From: Fibrobacter succinogenes
GTDB lineage: Bacteria; Fibrobacterota; Chitinivibrionia; Chitinivibrionales; Chitinivibrionaceae
Reading direction: 5' to 3'
Assembly: GCA_020726425.1 (NCBI GenBank)
Contig: DYSA01000004.1
Location: 1 to 32,125 of the forward strand
DNA length: 32,125 nucleotides
How positions within the stretch are numbered: position 1 is the stretch's first letter; every line of letters starts with the position of its first letter. Below, piece after piece: positions 8,087 to 19,825 of the stretch. The notes beneath the pieces are model-generated. The model ran no database searches and had not been told where the DNA came from. It saw nothing but the letters and a program-made list of their open reading frames with translations. The position numbers were made by a program, and so were the translations under genes.

Positions 8087-11000
8087 TTACTGACAATTAC
8101 TGTCAGAGACTGACTTTTGCAATCGAACAACTTCATCGTGACTCGTTTGAAGCTTTCTCCCAAGCACTTGTAAAAACGTATTAGCTAGTTCTGGAATCTG
8201 CGACACCATTTTTCGAAGATAACTTCTGCTCAGAACATACACTCTACAACGACTTGTAGCAATCACTGTTGCAGAACGAATATCTTGATTAAAAAGCCCC
8301 ACTTCACCATACGCTTCGCCAGAAACAAGCTCTCCAAATTTTACCGGAAAACTCCCATTCCCAACGACGAGATCGGCTGTTCCTTCTTTAAGTAAATAGA
8401 GATGGTTAGCACGATCTCCTTCACGAGAAATAAGTGCACCATCCTCATAAATTACTTCCTGAATACCTTCGGCTAAACTCATCAATCGCACAGCGCTTAC
8501 AGAAGCAAATAGTTCATTTCGTTTTAAAAACAAAACTCGATTTAACACTTTTATTGCTTCATTACTTTTCACACTATCAACTCCATCTGAATTCATTGCT
8601 ACCAATGAAAGTGTTTGAATAATCTCATTTTTAGAAGTACTTAGTTCGTTCAAAAGAGATTCGATGTTGAACAGATCTCGATCAGATTGTTGTAACTGCA
8701 AGTACAACCACAATGAACTACTGACAACAAGCGTGTTGGATGATTCAAAAATACGTTTTGGCAAAACGAAATTCCTAAGTCTCGTGGCAGTCATTTCTGC
8801 ATAAACAGAAATATCGAACGACTCTAAGATCGGTATCGTTAAATCTTTCAGAAGAGAATCAGCCGAGGTCTCCAACAACTCAATAAGCGCAACTCGCTCT
8901 TCAGGCTCTTCGACACGCAAATCGCGTCGACCTTCCGCAATAAAACCGGTTTCGTCAAGTATTGCAAGAGAATCAATCGCACATTCGGCGGCAAAAAGCA
9001 TCTGATCTTTCAAGGCTATATCAACAAGTTTAAAACTCTCATCTTCTCGATACTGAGCAGGAATTTGATGTAAAGCAGCGGCTATTTCATACACATCAAT
9101 AAGTTTAGATTCAGCATATAATTTTACACCATCCAGTTTGGAAAGTACTTTCAAATTGTGGTTCGTTTGAACGCTACCTAGTGCTCTTATGAGCAAATTT
9201 GTTTTTTCTAGTGGTAATTGACAACAATTGAGCATTGCGTCGACAGCAACTACTGCTTTCTCTGCAGATCTATGAATTTCGCGAAATAACAGTTCAAAAT
9301 TGCGCTCATGATCGGATGCAAGTATTCCTGACAACAACTCGAACTTCGACTTTTCACTTCCAACTTCAAATATATGACGGATTACTATTTTTGAGACATC
9401 TGAACTGATTTGCGATAATGATTGAATGGATCTCGATTCCCATTCTTCAAGTTGTAAAACAGTTAAACCAAGTACTGCAAGTTCTATACTACAATTCTGA
9501 TCACTTTTATAGAGTGAATCTAAAAACGATCGTAGATGTGGAAGATCACTCGATTTTTCATTACTACATAAATACATTCCCGAATACACGCGATCTTCTG
9601 GTTCTCCCACCCAAAAATATCGAGTTAAATGGGTGCGGAATTCAGATAAATATGTCTTGTTTAGAATGAGTGATAACACAGCTCTATGCCATACTTTGGG
9701 ATCTTCGTGCTCCACAAGAAAATAGAGCAGAAAAATATTATTCTTAATTTCCCCGGCATAACGTGCAGCTTCACGAATAAGAAGAATATCATTACTTTCC
9801 ATCACTAAACGATTTAAAGCGCCTTTGCTCTCATTTCTATCCATTTTCACCAAAAATTTTATTGCAGCTCTTTTCATATCTTGTGAACTGAACTCAGCAA
9901 ATTGATGTATTAAATCGATACATTCAGATTCTATGTTTGAGCCAATATTCATCACCAATGAATCAATTCCATCACCATTTTGATTTTGCGGTCTCACAAG
10001 ACTTTTCATGTATGCATGTTTAATCTTCAATGCTTCAATAAATAGCAAAAGTGAAGTTACACAAATAACCGATACCAGAACGACACTATGCTTATTAATT
10101 ATAAAAATAAGAATCGAAGCAGAAATGATCGCTAACGGCTTAACCACACCTTCAATGACCGTTTTAGCTCGACCACGCTTCTCTTTTTCCACAGCAGCAA
10201 AAAACATTTGATAAATCGGGGAAAAAAAGTTTTCAAATGCGAGATACCTAAATAGCTGCCATAACAATAAGATTGAAAATGTTAGTCTATTCAGACCCCA
10301 AAAATGTATCGTGGTGAGATACAAAATTGATCCTAAAAAAAGAGTCATAGGGAGATATGAAAAAATCCGAGTAAATCCCCGTAACGCAATCAAATCAGGA
10401 GTAACATAGCGCAATAAACCAATTGTAATAAGACTGTGAAAAACATAGAAACCGTACTGAAACTGCGATAACTTTCCAGCACCGGAAAATGTTGAATTAC
10501 ACTGTTGCCAGAAATGGTAGTCCACGAGAAATATGGATACAAAAATTCCAAAGTGAAGAACTGCAATATTCCTAACGAGTGAATTCTTAAAAACCTCCTG
10601 CGCATCGGAGAACAGCGTTCTAAAATGATTCGAACTTGAACTAGGAAGTGCTTCTTTAGGTATAAGTTTGTCATTGTATGAAGTAACAACTCGATTTACC
10701 GAAAAGTATGAAACAAGATAGAGTATCGACCAAAACAGAAGCATCAATTCAGCTTGGATAAAATTCAAAACAATCCACGACAGGATCGCGCCTGATAAAC
10801 CACCGATAAAACCCGATGAAGCGATGCGAGGAAAAATTGTTTTCGTTTCTGCCGGTTCACTGATATCTGTAGCCATAATCCAAAAGGTTAAGAAGAGAAT
10901 CGTTTTCAACAGATACGAAACTGGATAGAACAGTATCAGTACAAATCGTGAGGAATTAGGATATACAGAATCAGTTATCTCATAAATGACAAAGAGAAAT

Positions 11001-11248
11001 GCGATTAGAACTGTTGCAATTTTGAGTACATTTTTTAATAGATCACCGCGATTTATGTGATCAATTTTCTTAAAGAAAAGAAGTGGCAAGAGTAATAAGA
11101 TAGCACCATTCAACAAATACAATTTGCCGAGGATTTCACTGCCAAATGAAGAAACGATCAAAGAAGTGACCGCGGTTTCACCAACAATAGTAGCTCCAAA
11201 AATAAAAAAGTGCAACCGTGACAGAAGCTGCTCTTTGCGCAATAGCAT
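8087..11248 (-). CDS. NTT/MFS-like membrane protein fused to HEAT-like repeats and C-terminal cyclic-nucleotide-binding domain
   Basis: 1053 aa. N-terminal ~400 aa multi-TM with NTT-like segment (FWIMATDISEPAETKTIFPRIASSGFIGGLSGAIL); helical-repeat middle; C-terminal cNMP fold (ISREGDRANHLYLLKEGTADLVV...SGEAYGEVGLFNQDIRSATVIATSRCRVYVLSR). GGGGGA RBS upstream. Confidence 0.8.
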   Translation of the reverse strand: MLLRKEQLLSRLHFFIFGATIVGETAVTSLIVSSFGSEILGKLYLLNGAILLLLPLLFFKKIDHINRGDLLKNVLKIATVLIAFLFVIYEITDSVYPNSSRFVLILFYPVSYLLKTILFLTFWIMATDISEPAETKTIFPRIASSGFIGGLSGAILSWIVLNFIQAELMLLFWSILYLVSYFSVNRVVTSYNDKLIPKEALPSSSSNHFRTLFSDAQEVFKNSLVRNIAVLHFGIFVSIFLVDYHFWQQCNSTFSGAGKLSQFQYGFYVFHSLITIGLLRYVTPDLIALRGFTRIFSYLPMTLFLGSILYLTTIHFWGLNRLTFSILLLWQLFRYLAFENFFSPIYQMFFAAVEKEKRGRAKTVIEGVVKPLAIISASILIFIINKHSVVLVSVICVTSLLLFIEALKIKHAYMKSLVRPQNQNGDGIDSLVMNIGSNIESECIDLIHQFAEFSSQDMKRAAIKFLVKMDRNESKGALNRLVMESNDILLIREAARYAGEIKNNIFLLYFLVEHEDPKVWHRAVLSLILNKTYLSEFRTHLTRYFWVGEPEDRVYSGMYLCSNEKSSDLPHLRSFLDSLYKSDQNCSIELAVLGLTVLQLEEWESRSIQSLSQISSDVSKIVIRHIFEVGSEKSKFELLSGILASDHERNFELLFREIHRSAEKAVVAVDAMLNCCQLPLEKTNLLIRALGSVQTNHNLKVLSKLDGVKLYAESKLIDVYEIAAALHQIPAQYREDESFKLVDIALKDQMLFAAECAIDSLAILDETGFIAEGRRDLRVEEPEERVALIELLETSADSLLKDLTIPILESFDISVYAEMTATRLRNFVLPKRIFESSNTLVVSSSLWLYLQLQQSDRDLFNIESLLNELSTSKNEIIQTLSLVAMNSDGVDSVKSNEAIKVLNRVLFLKRNELFASVSAVRLMSLAEGIQEVIYEDGALISREGDRANHLYLLKEGTADLVVGNGSFPVKFGELVSGEAYGEVGLFNQDIRSATVIATSRCRVYVLSRSYLRKMVSQIPELANTFLQVLGRKLQTSHDEVVRLQKSVSDSNCQ

Positions 11249-11322: not shown

Positions 11323-12579
11323 TTAAAAAGAAAAGGTTGCACTAATCTTCGAACTGAAATGATGGCTGTTTCCACTGAAAAGATTGCTGAATGTGTAGAG
11401 CATATTTTCAGCGACTACTGCATCAACTTTAAAACGATCTTCAATATTTACACCCATACCAAATGAAACATGATCATCTTCGCTATTTTCTACCCAATAG
11501 CTGGTAGCATCACCTTCATTAAGTTTTTCATAAGCGAGAAGTTTAGCACCACCTACACGCCAAACAAGCCAGTCAGTCAGGATATTGCGTTCAATACCAA
11601 AAGATACTTTACCACCAATGCGGCTTCTAGTGCCTATTGAATCGGCAAATAATCCTAAAGATGAACTATCTCTGAAATTTTTCAGAATTGAATATGAGTC
11701 ATTCTGATAAATTCCTTCGATACCACCCCAAAGGAATCCACGGTCGATATTTGAATTGAGACCAACTCCACCGTTGAAATCCAAAATTGATTCATCGACA
11801 TGGTGTTTAATAATATTTGCCTGAATATGTGGAACAAATTTACCATTAATTGCGGGCATATCAGCAAATGCACGGACATCGGCAGTAATCACCATATCTT
11901 TATCAGCAGAAGAAACAGTTTCAATGCCTATTGCCTGAGGTCCTTTTAAGGTAATTGATCCAACTGAAAGACCTGCTTCAAAATCAAGGTTATCAGAAAC
12001 TGACCCTGCAACACCAAGATTTACTTTATTAAAACTGGTCTTTGCCTTATCTACGCCTTTTTCTTTTTCAGTCTGGAAAGCCATATAAGTTCCGACACCG
12101 ATCGTAAGACCATTTTTAAGTGTCACACCAGCAAGAACATCAGTTTTTCCAACCATTTCTTCAACAGGAATAAACTTTGCACCTGATTCTTTAGGTGCAC
12201 CAATGTAGTACTGGCTACCAGCATCAAGATATTTAAGCATTGGATCATAACGATTGAACATCGCTCCAATGGTAAATTTTGATTTTGACTCTTCACTTTC
12301 ACCAAATGATACAGTAGCACCAAAATTGGGTTTCATCGCATCGCGATTATACTGCTGAGAATACGCATCGGCAGCCGAATCTTCACCGATTTTTGTGTAA
12401 GCGCCGAAGGATCCCATGAGAAGTCGGCCATAACCACCAACTGTCGCTGGATTGACAAAAATTGACTGGTCATCTTTCATGAAACTGTGAGTTCCACCCA
12501 TAGTTTCAACTCGTGCATCGGTAGCGAATACTGAAGCGGCACATACAGAAACCGCAATAAGAGATAAATAACTGCGCAT
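11323..12579 (-). CDS. Outer-membrane beta-barrel-like protein, hypothetical
   Basis: Signal peptide (MRSYLSLIAVSVCAASVFA), alternating amphipathic strands, terminal ...SSKISATFSF ending in Phe. Start at the second Met is supported by a GGAG RBS. Confidence 0.65.
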   Translation of the reverse strand: MRSYLSLIAVSVCAASVFATDARVETMGGTHSFMKDDQSIFVNPATVGGYGRLLMGSFGAYTKIGEDSAADAYSQQYNRDAMKPNFGATVSFGESEESKSKFTIGAMFNRYDPMLKYLDAGSQYYIGAPKESGAKFIPVEEMVGKTDVLAGVTLKNGLTIGVGTYMAFQTEKEKGVDKAKTSFNKVNLGVAGSVSDNLDFEAGLSVGSITLKGPQAIGIETVSSADKDMVITADVRAFADMPAINGKFVPHIQANIIKHHVDESILDFNGGVGLNSNIDRGFLWGGIEGIYQNDSYSILKNFRDSSSLGLFADSIGTRSRIGGKVSFGIERNILTDWLVWRVGGAKLLAYEKLNEGDATSYWVENSEDDHVSFGMGVNIEDRFKVDAVVAENMLYTFSNLFSGNSHHFSSKISATFSF

Positions 12580-12617
12580 ACATTTCTCCATTTTACACTA
12601 TGATATGTTTTATTCTG

Positions 12618-12660: not shown

Positions 12661-14004
12661 TCACTGAGTAAATACAAAAGGATAAACAACTTCCGTCACA
12701 TCACCCGGTTTGTCAATTTGACCGAACGCCCAAAGACTAATTTTTTGAACGATAATTGCTTCTAAATCGGGGTCATTAATAGTTGAACTAATAACCTTAC
12801 AGAAAAGAACTTTACCAAATTCATCAATTGCCCATTTAACGGTAATTTTACCTTTTAAATCGGGATTATCAGCAAGTCGACGGTTGTAAGCGTACTTAAG
12901 AGATGCCATATTCTGTTGAACGACACGCATAATATTTGCACGACTACGTCCTCCAGTAAGACCAGCTCCATCTGCACCAGAAGGATCTTTCATTTTCAGC
13001 TCACCGCGTTTTTTCATCTCAACTTTGCTTCCGCCACCTCCGCCCATAAGGCTTCCGAGAAGGTCGTCAACACCACCTGAGCTTCCGCCGAATCCTGAAC
13101 CGTAGCCAGATCCGAATCCAATACCAGCTTCACCTTTACGTCCAGTTCCGCCACCGCCACCTTTTTGAAGACCTCCGACTCCGGAGAGAACAGCATCAAT
13201 ACCAGACGCATATCCACCTTTACCGAAAATATCAGAATTGGCAGCTGATTGACCAGTTACAGCACCGGAAATAATCCCGAGAACGCCTTTTTTGGTAACC
13301 ATCGCTTTTGGATCACCACCACCACCGGTTTTACCACCAGATCCAACAGGAGTTTCTTTGAGCTTTTTCTTCTCTTCTTTAAACTCCTCTTTTTTCTCTT
13401 CTTTTTTCTCCTCAAGATTTTTAGTAAGGTCGATCTCTTCTGAAAGAGAAACCGTTTTTTCCTGAAGTTTATTGTAGAAGTCTGGTGCAATAGTCATAAG
13501 ACTTACTTTGGTAAGAAATATCCCTACAGCAAGCCCGGCAACTGTTACAATCGGCATAATAAATCTGAGACGACGGTCTTTTTCAGCGACGAAAATGTCC
13601 ATACGCTGATTAAGCGCTTTTACATATTCTGCCTCAGTAAGCAATCTTCCATCATCTTCGTCTTCATCATCATCTTCATCATTTTTAGGTTTCGATGCTG
13701 CTGGTGACGCTTTCTTTTTATCAGTTACTGCGGCAGAAGCTCCAGCAACTTTTGAAGTGACAGGTTCACTAGTAGCAACAACCGAAAGATCTTTTATAGA
13801 AACCTCTGCACCGAGAGATTCAAATCGCGCTTTGAGTTCAAGTGCTTTCTCCTCTGAGAAATCTTTCCCGATAGAAATAGATTTCGAGGTAACAGCACTC
13901 ATAATCTGTTCAGGAGCAGCACCAGACATAGATGCGACTTCCTGAGTCACGTTTGCAGCGATTTGTTCGTTTGCACAGCGTTTCAAAATTACTTGATAAC
14001 TCAT
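12661..14004 (-). CDS. AgmX/PglI C-terminal (TonB-like) energy transducer with N-terminal L7/L12-CTD-like domain
   Basis: 447 aa. C-terminal RVVQQNMASLKYAYNRRLADNPDLKGKITVKWAIDEFGKVLFCKVISSTINDPDLEAIIVQKISLWAFG is TonB/AgmX-like; single TM (RFIMPIVTVAGLAVGIFLTKV); Lys/Glu- and Gly-rich linker; next to ExbD/ExbB. Confidence 0.85.
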   Translation of the reverse strand: MSYQVILKRCANEQIAANVTQEVASMSGAAPEQIMSAVTSKSISIGKDFSEEKALELKARFESLGAEVSIKDLSVVATSEPVTSKVAGASAAVTDKKKASPAASKPKNDEDDDEDEDDGRLLTEAEYVKALNQRMDIFVAEKDRRLRFIMPIVTVAGLAVGIFLTKVSLMTIAPDFYNKLQEKTVSLSEEIDLTKNLEEKKEEKKEEFKEEKKKLKETPVGSGGKTGGGGDPKAMVTKKGVLGIISGAVTGQSAANSDIFGKGGYASGIDAVLSGVGGLQKGGGGGTGRKGEAGIGFGSGYGSGFGGSSGGVDDLLGSLMGGGGGSKVEMKKRGELKMKDPSGADGAGLTGGRSRANIMRVVQQNMASLKYAYNRRLADNPDLKGKITVKWAIDEFGKVLFCKVISSTINDPDLEAIIVQKISLWAFGQIDKPGDVTEVVYPFVFTQ

Positions 14005-14006
14005 AA

Positions 14007-14501
14007 TTATTGTTCCCGCATCATCACTGCAAATTTCATGTTGACATATCCGTTACGACCGCAAAGGCGCATGATCTTGTAAAGAATATCAAAATTGATA
14101 TTTTTATCAACCTGCACTACGATCTCTCCTTTTACTTCATTCAAAATCCCCCGTTTTACCATCTCTTCTTCGGCGCGCATATGCTTTTTAAGCTGAGCAT
14201 CCAACAAAGAGAGAGTATCAACGTCGAATTTATCTTGAACAGTCTCTGATAATTTCATTGTCGATTCTACAGTGGCATTATCAATCAGAATCGAATCTGA
14301 AGTTACCGCCAACTGAAGACTAACTTCTTCTGGTCTTTTATTCGAAACAGAATTCGGAAGAGCTAAGTCATCCGCATTCGTAAGCATCGAACCATCTGCA
14401 GAGAAACTCTTAAGAAGGAACAGAAGAATAATCGTGAACATGTCCATCATTGATGTAATATTCAGGGACGTCGAACCTTTAATTTTCTTGATTTTCGCCA
14501 T
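14007..14501 (-). CDS. ExbD/TolR-family biopolymer transport protein (Asp-containing)
   Basis: 164 aa; N-terminal TM with SLNITSMMDMFTIILLFLLKSF, retaining the ExbD/TolR TM Asp; periplasmic domain GEIVVQVDKNINFDILYKIMRLCGRNGYVNMKFAV. Confidence 0.88.
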   Translation of the reverse strand: MAKIKKIKGSTSLNITSMMDMFTIILLFLLKSFSADGSMLTNADDLALPNSVSNKRPEEVSLQLAVTSDSILIDNATVESTMKLSETVQDKFDVDTLSLLDAQLKKHMRAEEEMVKRGILNEVKGEIVVQVDKNINFDILYKIMRLCGRNGYVNMKFAVMMREQ

Positions 14502-14510
14502 AATCCCCTC

Positions 14511-15395
14511 CTACATCCGCAGTTTTGCAATTGAAATATTTTTCAAATTGGCAGTTCTGCCGACATCCATAAGCTGAACAATTTTATCGTAAACCATTTG
14601 ATCTTCAGCAGCAATAATCAAGTCATTGCGATCTTCCGCATCGGGATAACGATCGCGAACCTGAACAAGCATACTTTTCATCAAATCGTATGCAGAAAGA
14701 TCACGTTGCTCAAAATCAGCAGGATTTTGAATGGTAATTTTTCTCCGTGTTACGACTTCTTCATCTTCAGTTTTATCAGCATCAGCTTCCGATACCGGGC
14801 TCATACGAGTAGTCAATGCATAAACAACGTCACCAGGTTTAATGGATTTCAAAGGAGCACCGTTCTCATCAGTAAGCAGTTCGCTAAATTGAATCGAATA
14901 ATACCCTTTTTTAACCGCTTTGAAGTCATCTTCCATTGCATACAAGTAGATTTCTTCACGATCCTGAGGCGTAAATGCCTTCCCACTTTTGGGATCAATT
15001 GGAAGCGCTGAATATTTCATCGTTTTAGGATCCAATTTTTCAGGGAAATACTCTTCCATCGGAAGAACAGTTCCCGTTTCTTTGGAAACATACTTGTGAT
15101 ACTCTTTATAGAATATCGACGGTAAGAAATTACTTTTTGCACCGATTGTCATTGCAGAGTCAGACAAGAGAACGGTCAAAACGAGTTTGTTCGGTTCTTC
15201 TTCCGGCTTCTGCGTTTGCGTCGATGTAGTCTGAGATCCACGAGGACCTTGAGGAAGACTAACATCCACAGTAGCAATCTTTGCAAACTCTGCAGAAGCA
15301 AGAAGAACAGGGATCAATACCACCATGAGATTCATGAAACTGGTAAGATCAAGCTCTTTCATTTCAGCTTTGCTACGTCTTATTTTATTTGCCAT
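14511..15395 (-). CDS. ExbD/TolR-like protein, extended (294 aa), TM Asp apparently replaced by Asn
   Basis: ELDLTSFMNLMVVLIPVLLASAEFAKIATVDVSLP matches ExbD (INVTPFIDVMLVLLIIFMVAAPLATVDV). C-terminal NDLIIAAEDQMVYDKIVQLMDVGRTANLKNISIAKL is ExbD-like. Confidence 0.85.
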   Translation of the reverse strand: MANKIRRSKAEMKELDLTSFMNLMVVLIPVLLASAEFAKIATVDVSLPQGPRGSQTTSTQTQKPEEEPNKLVLTVLLSDSAMTIGAKSNFLPSIFYKEYHKYVSKETGTVLPMEEYFPEKLDPKTMKYSALPIDPKSGKAFTPQDREEIYLYAMEDDFKAVKKGYYSIQFSELLTDENGAPLKSIKPGDVVYALTTRMSPVSEADADKTEDEEVVTRRKITIQNPADFEQRDLSAYDLMKSMLVQVRDRYPDAEDRNDLIIAAEDQMVYDKIVQLMDVGRTANLKNISIAKLRM

Positions 15396-15428: not shown

Positions 15429-16061
15429 TTACTCTTCGATGAGGTTAATCAGCTTCGCAGACTTTTCATCAAGGTCTTCAAGTACTTTGTCTGATTGTGC
15501 AGCAAGGATACCCTGACATAGAACTCCAGGAATCGCTACCATAAGTCCAAAAAGCGTGGTTGACATCGCAACCGAGATACCTTTTGCAAGTTCAGTTGCA
15601 CGCTGTGCTGCAGGAGCATTTGCCACCGCGTCGAACGCCATCATAAGACCGAAAATTGTACCCATAAGTCCCAACATAGTTGCGATATTCGCCATATTAT
15701 TAACCATTGGAATCATCTTTGTCACTTTGGGAGCTTCAGAAAGGAATACTTCATCAACACGTTTCTGAACTGTTTTTGTAGATTGACCTTTATTTGCAAG
15801 AATTACTACAACTGCTTTAGCAAGAGGCATTTTCTTTTTTGATTCTGCGAATTTAATAGCTTTGTCAAACTGTCCCTGCTTCATGAATTTAGCAATACCA
15901 TCCATAAATTTTGCCGCTCCGCCAGCAGAACCATAGAGATAAATAGCACGTTCTACAACAACCGCGAACAGAGCTATTCCAACAAGAAGAATAAGCCACA
16001 TTGCCCAAGAACCACTTTTGTCCTGGAAACCCACTGCGATGAAATTAAACAAAGTACCCAT
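15429..16061 (-). CDS. MotA/TolQ/ExbB proton channel family protein
   Basis: 210 aa; NNMANIATMLGLMGTIFGLMMAFDAVANAPAAQRATELAKGISVAMSTTLFGLMVAIPGVLC is the classic TolQ/ExbB TM2-TM3 region. Confidence 0.95.
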   Translation of the reverse strand: MGTLFNFIAVGFQDKSGSWAMWLILLVGIALFAVVVERAIYLYGSAGGAAKFMDGIAKFMKQGQFDKAIKFAESKKKMPLAKAVVVILANKGQSTKTVQKRVDEVFLSEAPKVTKMIPMVNNMANIATMLGLMGTIFGLMMAFDAVANAPAAQRATELAKGISVAMSTTLFGLMVAIPGVLCQGILAAQSDKVLEDLDEKSAKLINLIEE

Positions 16062-16144: not shown

Positions 16145-19100
16145 TCATTTTAATTTCGTCAGTTGCTCTTTAGCTTTCGCAATTTTTTCTTCTTCATCCA
16201 AAATTGATCTTTTTGCAACATTTTCAATTTCTGTCAACTTTGCAAGTTTTTCAGAATCATCACTTCCAGAACTCATTACAGCACTAATATTTGAAAGTGC
16301 CTGTTCCAATCCACGCTGAACTTCAGCCTCGACTGAATTGGTTACACGCTGTTCTTCATTGATAGTTTCAAATTGTATTGTCATCGCTTCTGAAGTCGGG
16401 TCGATATATTCGATACGACTTTTCACACTATCAACCCAGACGTTACGTGAAATACCGATTGCTTTCGCGGTATTCAATGCTTCTTCGAATTTCGGAAGGG
16501 CGGCATCAAGAGCAGTCAAATATTTTTCATCGAGAGCATCCCGATACTCCTGTTCCTCATCTGCCGTTAATCCATCAGGGATCGGAGCATCACGGAAAAT
16601 TTCACCTACTTCTTCAAGAAGACGACCTTTTCGATATCCCATCTCCATATAGGCTATTTCAGATTTACGAACATACTCATTACTAATTCCCTGTTTCTGA
16701 GCAGTTTCGATATTCCAGCCAAGTTTTTCTTGAGCACGTGAATAATACTGTTCAAGTCCAGAAACAAGCTGAATTTTCGCGGCCAATTTTTCATCGCGAC
16801 TACCAAAGAGTTGCTGATCGCGAAGATCACTCGCAAAATTTACATAGGTCATACCGATTGCATAGGTTGATTTGAATGTCCACTCTTCAATACCCATTTT
16901 GATAGCTTCTGCATATGATTCAAGTACAGGTTTGAGCGCCTTAACTTTAATATCAAGTTGCTTTTTAACGGCTGCTGGATTTGCACCAACAAGCTTGATC
17001 GCTTCAACTTTCGCACGATTCAACTCACCGAAGATATAGTAACTTTTTGCACCGATATCACTTGAGAGTTCATCTTTTTTCGCATATTTCTCATATACTT
17101 TAATGGCAAGTGAAACATTCGTCTCTGCAGCAGAAATCTGTTTCAACTCAATAAATGCCTCAGTCGCTAACAGATACGCATTAATCTGTTTCTGACGTGG
17201 TTCTGGGAATTTATTTGCATAATCAACAAAGGCATTCGCCATATCTGATTTGCGTTCCATTTTCTGATAACAGTATCCAATCGAGTAATATCCTTCAGCT
17301 GCGAATTCTGTTTCTGTGTATTTCGTTCCAAGAATGGTATACACATCAATTGCTCGCTGGAAATTTTTCGCTTTTTCATACGCAAGACCGGCATTGTAAA
17401 GAGCTGTTGGGGTATTCACAGCGGTTGGATACAGTTTATATGCGAGATAAAACGCATCACCCGATTTCGTGTCATTGCCAGCTGTCTTGTAATACTCCGC
17501 GGCTTTCGCCAAAGCACCGATCGCAAATGCAGTGTCCTTAATCGTAGATCCAGCAAGCTCCATCACCGTCGCTGCTTCAGTAAACTTATTGAGCTTCACA
17601 TAATTTTCACCTGCACGGCCATAGGCTTGCGGAATAAGCTTAGAAGCAGGGAACTGCTTAGCTAAGGCTACAAATGTTTCAGCAGCTTTTATTCCATCAT
17701 TTCCTGTTTCATATGACGCCGCAGCTTCAAACCAAGCTTTTTCAGCCACAACACTTGATGGATACTTCGAAGCAACGCTCATAAATGCAGTTGCCGCCGC
17801 AGGATATCCACCATTGGTACGCAATGCATCTGCTTTCAGGAACAGGGCACCTGCCGCGAGATCGATATACTTCTTATACTCTTCCGAGTTTTTCTCAGTC
17901 CGAGCGAGCAGCACATCATACGTTGAAATTGCAAGGTCAAACTGTTTGCTCTTTGTATATGCATCAGCCTTGAGCTTTGTTGCACGAGTAAAGAGATCTT
18001 TGTCCGAACCGTATTGCAATACAACTTTTTCACATTCAGAAATTGTTGTTACATAATCTTCACCAGTGTACATAACATCAGCAGCAAGCATCAACACTTC
18101 TGGAGCATTGGGGCTCTTAGGGAATCTTGATTGGAATCCACGTACATATCCAAGGAATTTCTGAGTTGCTGGAAGTTGATACGCAGCAACACCGGTAAGA
18201 TTTCCGTTTTTAACTTGGATTTTACGCAAAGTATCAAGTGCAACAATCGAGTTAAACCCTGCATCCATCTGTGAAATATCTACAGGTGAACTTTTCTTTT
18301 CTTTCTTTGCTTTTTCTTGTTCTTCTTGCGAAAGTCCAAGAGTGTCAATGTCAGACTTGAACGACGGATACTTTGTCAAATCAGCATTCGCAACGAAATC
18401 GTAGTACTCTGCAGCTTTTTCGAACTGCCCGAGAGTTGAATACGCTTCTGCTGCATTGTAGTGATATTCGTATGTTGCCCATTTGTCTTCAGGATACATA
18501 CTAATGAATTGTTCATATCTTTTAAGAGCTTCAGCAAACCAAGCACTCTTTTTTTCAGGCTCTTTTGAAGACTGCGCCATAGAGTGATAGTAAATCGCGA
18601 TCTGACCAAGAGCTTTGCGAACTTCAAGATCAGCTTTTGCAATTCCTACCTTATTAGAGGCATTCTTTTGCGCCCATGGCCCATTTTTACCATAAACATC
18701 AACCAATTTTTCGCGTGCTTTAGCAGCATCTTCGTTTTTCTTACGAATCACATAACAGTTCACGATATTTGTCTGAGCCCGAGGTGCATCTTCGAAATCT
18801 GGGAATTTATCTATTGCACGAGACAACGCAAGAACCGCAGCTTCGTACTGGCCATGGTCATAATTTTTCATACCAACAGCGTAGGTCACAGTGTCTTCAT
18901 ACGTCCGTTTCCCCTTAGACGAGAAATAATCAAGTGCCTTTTGTGCACCATTATCCATATCTGAGAAACAAACAGAAAGATACTCCATTGCCTCTGGGCG
19001 GAGGTCGCGTTTAGGAAACTCAAGGCGGTCACACTTGTCAATATACTGACCAAAGTACTCAGCACCTTTTTCAAAGCTACCAATATTGTAGTATATTTCC

Positions 19101-19825
19101 GCGGTTCTAAAATGAGCCACTTCACGAGTTGCATCATTGAGATGAGCCTGATTAATAGCATTCAAGTGTTTTAGAGCTTCAGTATACTCGCGTTCAGAAA
19201 AGTGAATTTCCGCAAGACGATAGCGAGCTGCCGCAGCACGAACATCTGTCGGATTTACTTCTACAAGCTTGTTATATGACTCAAGAGACTTATCAATTTC
19301 GCCACGCAGATAGTAGATATTACCCACTTGATAATAGGCTTCGCCAACAAGTTTTGAAGTTGGATACTCCTTAATACCGCGCTTATAGCTAGCTAACGCC
19401 TTACTATAATCAGGAGCAGGAGAAACAGGCTCTTTACCTACAGGATTTTTCTGATATTTGATCATGCCCTGCTCGTAAGCTTCCTGAGCTTTCACAAAAT
19501 CATCTTGCGATTTATTGTAATAGAACTTACTAACCGAAAAGAGAGCATCGGCACAACGTTCATTGACTTGACCTACACAGTTTTTTGTCAAATAAGACTC
19601 GTAACGCGCAATAACTTCTTCGGGACTTGCGGTAGTAGTTTGAGCACTCTCAACCTTGCCTAGCAATTTTTCTTTGTCTTGCTTCGCTTTTTCAATCTGC
19701 ATAAGAAGCTCTTGGCGCTTCTTATCCTTCTCTGCATCTGTAAGCTCTTTACCTGCCAACACCGTCGCAAACTGAGCGCACACGACCACTGCCATCATAA
19801 TTATTGGAAACCGTTTCATAAACAA
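16145..19825 (-). CDS. Large secreted TPR-repeat protein, likely partner of the Ton/Agl-like complex
   Basis: 1226 aa; signal peptide (MFMKRFPIIMMAVVVCAQFATVLAG); many TPR/Sel1-like repeats (AYYQVGNIYYLRGEIDKSLESYNKLVEVNPTDVRAAAARYRLAEIHF etc.). Confidence 0.85.
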   Translation of the reverse strand: MFMKRFPIIMMAVVVCAQFATVLAGKELTDAEKDKKRQELLMQIEKAKQDKEKLLGKVESAQTTTASPEEVIARYESYLTKNCVGQVNERCADALFSVSKFYYNKSQDDFVKAQEAYEQGMIKYQKNPVGKEPVSPAPDYSKALASYKRGIKEYPTSKLVGEAYYQVGNIYYLRGEIDKSLESYNKLVEVNPTDVRAAAARYRLAEIHFSEREYTEALKHLNAINQAHLNDATREVAHFRTAEIYYNIGSFEKGAEYFGQYIDKCDRLEFPKRDLRPEAMEYLSVCFSDMDNGAQKALDYFSSKGKRTYEDTVTYAVGMKNYDHGQYEAAVLALSRAIDKFPDFEDAPRAQTNIVNCYVIRKKNEDAAKAREKLVDVYGKNGPWAQKNASNKVGIAKADLEVRKALGQIAIYYHSMAQSSKEPEKKSAWFAEALKRYEQFISMYPEDKWATYEYHYNAAEAYSTLGQFEKAAEYYDFVANADLTKYPSFKSDIDTLGLSQEEQEKAKKEKKSSPVDISQMDAGFNSIVALDTLRKIQVKNGNLTGVAAYQLPATQKFLGYVRGFQSRFPKSPNAPEVLMLAADVMYTGEDYVTTISECEKVVLQYGSDKDLFTRATKLKADAYTKSKQFDLAISTYDVLLARTEKNSEEYKKYIDLAAGALFLKADALRTNGGYPAAATAFMSVASKYPSSVVAEKAWFEAAASYETGNDGIKAAETFVALAKQFPASKLIPQAYGRAGENYVKLNKFTEAATVMELAGSTIKDTAFAIGALAKAAEYYKTAGNDTKSGDAFYLAYKLYPTAVNTPTALYNAGLAYEKAKNFQRAIDVYTILGTKYTETEFAAEGYYSIGYCYQKMERKSDMANAFVDYANKFPEPRQKQINAYLLATEAFIELKQISAAETNVSLAIKVYEKYAKKDELSSDIGAKSYYIFGELNRAKVEAIKLVGANPAAVKKQLDIKVKALKPVLESYAEAIKMGIEEWTFKSTYAIGMTYVNFASDLRDQQLFGSRDEKLAAKIQLVSGLEQYYSRAQEKLGWNIETAQKQGISNEYVRKSEIAYMEMGYRKGRLLEEVGEIFRDAPIPDGLTADEEQEYRDALDEKYLTALDAALPKFEEALNTAKAIGISRNVWVDSVKSRIEYIDPTSEAMTIQFETINEEQRVTNSVEAEVQRGLEQALSNISAVMSSGSDDSEKLAKLTEIENVAKRSILDEEEKIAKAKEQLTKLK

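Follow-up and report, generated by a model that had tools for sequence, protein, structure and literature searches.

An L12-like N-terminal domain as a candidate cytoplasmic docking head on a Glt/AgmX-class energy transducer of Chitinivibrionales

The window analysed here, a stretch of 32,125 nucleotides from a bacterium deposited as Fibrobacter succinogenes and placed in the order Chitinivibrionales of the phylum Fibrobacterota (contig DYSA01000004.1), encodes on its minus strand a protein of 447 amino acids (12661–14004) whose N-terminus (residues 1–75, 13780–14004) resembles the C-terminal domain (CTD) of the ribosomal protein L7/L12. This resemblance is real in sequence and in predicted fold, and the sequence signal is strongest in the C-terminal half of the domain. 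We suggest, with a probability of about 0.65, that the domain is a flexibly tethered cytoplasmic docking head which was added by fusion to an ExbB/ExbD energy transducer of the GltG/AgmX class in the ancestor of the order. We favor a docking role since the domain is small and tightly conserved, is held by a flexible acidic linker at the predicted cytoplasmic end of the protein and is reused on unrelated envelope proteins. Transducers of the TonB, TolA and Glt types usually have little cytoplasmic part, and it is largely an open question how cells control the place and time of action of these motors. The combination of an L12-like head with a Ton/Glt-type transducer appears to be undescribed, as no report of it was found in a literature search of incomplete coverage.

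Resemblance of the head to the L7/L12 C-terminal domain

The L7/L12 CTD pattern that the earlier note had recognized at the N-terminus is borne out by profile searches. The Pfam family Ribosomal_L12 (PF00542) aligns over its full length, positions 2–67 of 67, to residues 4–71 of the transducer, with E=8.8e-5 for the isolated head (residues 1–72, 13789–14004, minus strand) and E=0.006 for the full protein. The score of the head is under the curated cut-off of the family (23.2 vs 25.9 bits), the match still being full length and significant. The NCBIfam L12 model matches the head with 2.5e-4, and 25 of the 28 aligned head sequences match PF00542 individually. When the whole genome was searched in six frames with PF00542, the true bL12 ranked first (107 bits), the transducer locus second (22.2 bits, E 5.6e-4) and the EF-Ts region third; the true bL12 gene lies elsewhere in the genome, adjoining other ribosomal protein genes. 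Across the order the transducer repeatedly ranks next after bL12, mostly by means of profile positions 33–66.

Profile–profile comparison agrees with these searches. An hhalign comparison of the heads with 18 bL12 CTDs of the same order gave a score of 29.1 (E 2.5e-5) in an alignment limited to the 35 C-terminal columns, whereas 150 column-shuffled controls reached a mean of 10.0 and a maximum of 17.9. In the reverse direction, a search of 168 genomes with the head profile returned, after the head itself, mainly bL12, identified by its coordinates. The shuffles, the reverse search and the structural comparison described below rule out a chance motif match. Nor does the likeness rest on the TGLGL motif alone, which is the case for EF-Ts: EF-Ts covers only profile positions 15–38, the head 2–67. 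A wrong start codon or spurious N-terminal extension is excluded by the conservation and the dN/dS of the head.

AlphaFold2, run on the head from the alignment, predicted a beta-alpha-alpha-beta-alpha-beta structure with a pLDDT of 86.8 (strands 3–7, 43–49 and 68–72; helices 13–27, 31–40 and 51–63). In a Foldseek search against the PDB, L12 CTDs rank first (2zjq, 1ctf, 1dd3) with an E of 9.7e-5 and TM scores up to 0.80, which is the alpha/beta fold that had been anticipated, and structures of ClpS come next. The predicted fold thus places the head in the L7/L12-CTD/ClpS-like superfamily; L12 CTD and ClpS are grouped together in SCOP (PMC544345).

The second place of ClpS in the structural ranking gives rise to another reading, namely that the head is a ClpS-like peptide-binding domain which catches a short linear motif or a protease component and in this way controls turnover or localization. 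Among the most conserved positions of the head are C10, D12, K41 and C44, located in the beta-1/alpha-1 loop and at the start of beta-2. The N-degron holding site of ClpS lies near the region matching these two elements, so that the conserved residues would be close to it. On the other hand, ClpS ranks below L12 and its structures share only ~10–19% identity with the head, and the ClpS Pfam family is absent from the matches of the head, both with the single sequence and with 28 aligned sequences. We therefore regard a ClpS-like function as very unlikely.

The transducer and its operon

The remainder of the protein corresponds to the charged linker, single TM helix and TonB/AgmX-like C-terminus that had been read from the sequence before. 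The head is followed by a flexible linker of variable sequence (residues 73–118, 13651–13788), rich first in Ala, Pro and Lys and then in Asp and Glu, by a conserved juxtamembrane segment with the pattern GRxLTxxEY...RxDIFxxEKDRRLR (residues 119–145, 13570–13650) and by a single TM helix found by hydropathy (residues 146–164, 13513–13569). Beyond the helix there are a charged stretch, a conserved Gly-rich region, predicted to be periplasmic (approximately residues 223–345, 12970–13338), and an AgmX/PglI (TonB-like) C-terminal domain (residues 354–445, 12670–12945; NF033768, E 1.2e-22), all on the minus strand. The single N-terminal TM helix, the AgmX/PglI domain and the linkage to ExbB and ExbD identify the protein as a Ton/Tol/Glt-type transducer. 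The positive-inside rule, which predicts an N-in orientation from the positive charges on the N side of the helix, and homology support the earlier placement of the head and the juxtamembrane segment on the cytoplasmic side.

The transducer gene belongs to an operon on the minus strand which starts with a large TPR protein of 1226 amino acids (16145–19825; TPR Pfam matches), continues with an ExbB/TolQ/AglR-type proton channel (15429–16061; PF01618, 1.6e-22) and two ExbD/TolR-type proteins (14511–15395, PF02472 1.5e-12; and 14007–14501, of the ExbD/TolR/AglQS type, PF02472 1.3e-14), and has downstream of the transducer a porin-like outer membrane protein of the PopA family (11323–12591; NF053618, 3.9e-9). 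The outermost two genes are also identified by their conserved neighbourhood, as the order TPR–ExbB–ExbD–ExbD–transducer–porin is kept across the order and in Fibrobacter, where the transducer has no head. In the order, the operon is often followed 3′ by a TM/cNMP-binding protein and then by a sugar-type ABC importer. In the window the former is a membrane protein of 1053 amino acids (8087–11248, minus strand) with a HEAT-like region and a C-terminal cyclic-nucleotide-binding domain, and it is kept between the motor operon and the importer. The importer was dropped as a functional clue, since ABC genes are missing beside some head-bearing operons.

In F. succinogenes an ExbB–ExbD–ExbD–TonB gene set is upregulated on cellulose, and a role in driving the uptake of cellodextrins has been proposed for it (PMC6851124). 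As the gene order agrees, the present operon may be the counterpart of this set, and uptake or envelope work appears as plausible a task for it as gliding.

A few related loci deserve mention. One locus of the order (L112, 1770–6274, plus strand; G008) has a pair of ExbD genes flanked by two head-bearing transducers, and in another (L070, 587–1917, minus strand; G026) the transducer reading frame is broken between head and TM helix, probably by an assembly frameshift. A von Willebrand factor A-like protein adjoining a transducer (L110, 5752–7695, minus strand) holds a copy of the Gly-rich motif, and several proteins of the order with open frames of 900–1400 amino acids match the C-terminal half of the transducer.

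Distribution of the head and its recurrence on other proteins

The genome that contains the window is a draft of 3.4 Mb and the genomes compared are mostly drafts, so that an absence from any single genome carries little weight. Homologues of the transducer are present in 159 of 168 genomes of the phylum. Within the order, 33 of 40 genomes have the head, whereas among the remaining 128 genomes it occurs on no transducer; one further match of the head profile is bL12. The Fibrobacter transducers from operons of the same gene order begin just before the TM helix and have no head, and a paralogue of the transducer in the same genome as the window also lacks it. A sample of Myxococcota-related genomes, searched for a wider origin, gave weak matches only (21–26 bits), mostly to short open reading frames of the size of bL12.

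In closely related pairs the dN/dS of the head is ~0.03–0.15, that is, strong purifying selection, whereas constraint on the linker is weak where enough codons could be aligned, and much lower than on the head. Within the head, conservation peaks in strands 1 and 2 and in the beta-1/alpha-1 loop and is lowest in alpha-2. Because purifying selection acts on the head, which the Fibrobacter orthologues and the paralogue lack, it represents a functional addition and not a part of the motor core.

The same head is not restricted to the transducer. It forms the start of two tyrosine autokinases of the Wzc/CpsD type (L104, 1805–2926, plus strand; L108, 1515–2696, minus strand), which have no TM helices and are encoded beside Wzz-like chain-length proteins, and also of a TM-TPR protein. 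In addition, a homologous head is borne by a second bitopic family, which this genome (C137) shares with most of the order and of which some Fibrobacter have a related form. By hhalign its head matches those of the transducers over 76 columns with E 7.4e-12 and bL12 with E 6.6e-7, the shuffles being far below, and AlphaFold2/Foldseek again rank L12 first. Further Fibrobacter TM-TPR proteins begin with L12-like heads. Every such head either precedes a TM helix or belongs to a soluble kinase, which is consistent with a cytoplasmic role. The L12 CTD fold is hence reused outside the ribosome, and that kinases and TPR proteins carry it as well suggests a common interaction system in the cytoplasm. 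Tentatively, an as yet unnamed family of cytoplasmic L12-CTD-like heads may have been exchanged between bitopic envelope proteins in the Fibrobacterota (motor transducers, TPR proteins and tyrosine autokinases) as a shared cytoplasmic docking code, by which a proton-driven envelope motor would be linked to other machines of the envelope, among them polysaccharide export, although we would not yet put much confidence in so general a scheme.

Clear L12-CTD domains, one or two per protein, are also carried by Ser-rich Fibrobacter proteins that seem to have a lipoprotein signal peptide (L196, 2260–3789; L197, 1795–3357; L199, 1254–3488; in G064, G108 and G124), with scores above the Pfam cut-off and up to 70 bits. 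On exported proteins such domains are unexpected.

The head could also be a self-acting part of the motor which lies against the cytoplasmic side of the ExbB pentamer, or against the juxtamembrane segment, and controls how the stator assembles. It is encoded beside ExbB and ExbD in the main operon and the juxtamembrane segment is highly conserved, but the orthologous Fibrobacter motors are kept without it, and kinases and TPR proteins carry the same head without an ExbB neighbour. Such a role appears rather doubtful to us. As a caveat to the docking reading, the head might just stabilize the transducer or pack on ExbB.

For the docking head that we prefer, position, tether and recurrence of the domain suggest the following scheme. 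The protein would serve as energy transducer in an ExbB/ExbD machine which is driven by protons and related to the GltG/AgmX class. We infer that the head joined the orthologous transducer in the ancestor of the order, most likely by fusion from a pool of L12-like heads that other bitopic envelope proteins in the phylum already carried. The presumably disordered acidic linker would let the head reach a cytosolic or membrane-peripheral partner, the motor would thereby be placed, gated or coupled to this partner, and the TM helix and the AgmX/PglI tail would transmit force towards the outer membrane.

Proposed GTPase docking and comparison with known systems

The earlier note had further suggested that the head could recruit a cytoplasmic regulator or a GTPase, in the way that L12 recruits translational GTPases. 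On this reading the helix pair used by bL12 would bind either a GTPase of translation or a small one, for instance MglA. Three points speak for this proposal: the head shares its fold with the bL12 CTD in the Foldseek search, the genome and most others of the order encode MglA together with a Roadblock/LC7 neighbour, and in Myxococcus MglA docks on the Glt/Agl machinery. However, the bL12-type docking residues are not retained. In E. coli L12 we take the contact residues of helices 4–5 to be K65, V66, I69, K70, R73, L80 and K84. At the positions of K65, I69, K70, R73, K81 and K84 the heads show Q/E, A, E/A/D, A, D/E and Y/L/F, respectively, in an alignment whose first half is of low confidence; the contact positions are replaced in 37 aligned heads and invariant or nearly so in the 18 bL12 of the order. 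Moreover, alpha-2 is the least conserved element of the head, and kinases of the Wzc/CpsD type carry the L12-like domain as well. Finally, MglA homologues occur in 138 of the 168 genomes, with or without the head, so that MglA presence is independent of the head and its co-occurrence was dropped as support; matches at ~60% identity show that the MglA query worked. Binding through the GTPase face of bL12 is thus unlikely and a different face is probably used. The partner may be cytosolic, and even a GTPase bound through this other face. MglA homologues of the order (L120, 3878–5557, and L121, 2043–3686, both minus strand; the latter in G000:C91) have long Pro/Gln-rich C-terminal extensions of ~350 amino acids and a Roadblock/LC7 neighbour.

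Compared with bL12, the head has the fold of the CTD, the full-length profile match and the EEA..LK..FE..GA.VE motif, but it is not a ribosomal bL12, as it starts at residue 1 without the N-terminal dimerization domain, is joined to a TM transducer encoded in a motor operon and not in a ribosomal operon, and lacks the GTPase-contact residues. With ClpS it has the overall fold in common, but it is not a free adaptor and has no detectable sequence similarity to that family.

The transducer resembles GltG/PglI and GltJ/AgmX of Myxococcus in its AgmX/PglI tail, its ExbB/ExbD-type partners and its TPR neighbour. Published work (PMC3169522) traces the core complex of GltD/E/G with AglRQS as far as Fibrobacter and describes an FHA domain in GltG. 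The present protein is not a GltG equivalog, as it has the L12-like head in place of the N-terminal FHA domain and the GltG model covers only residues 192–447 with 89.8 bits against a cut-off of 650; a gliding machinery would here be putative. GltG and GltJ have no L12-like head, their models matching the C-terminal part only. The orthologous Fibrobacter transducer is alike in operon order and C-terminal region and differs in the lack of the N-terminal head, and the head-bearing motor and its headless orthologues offer a natural plus/minus comparison.
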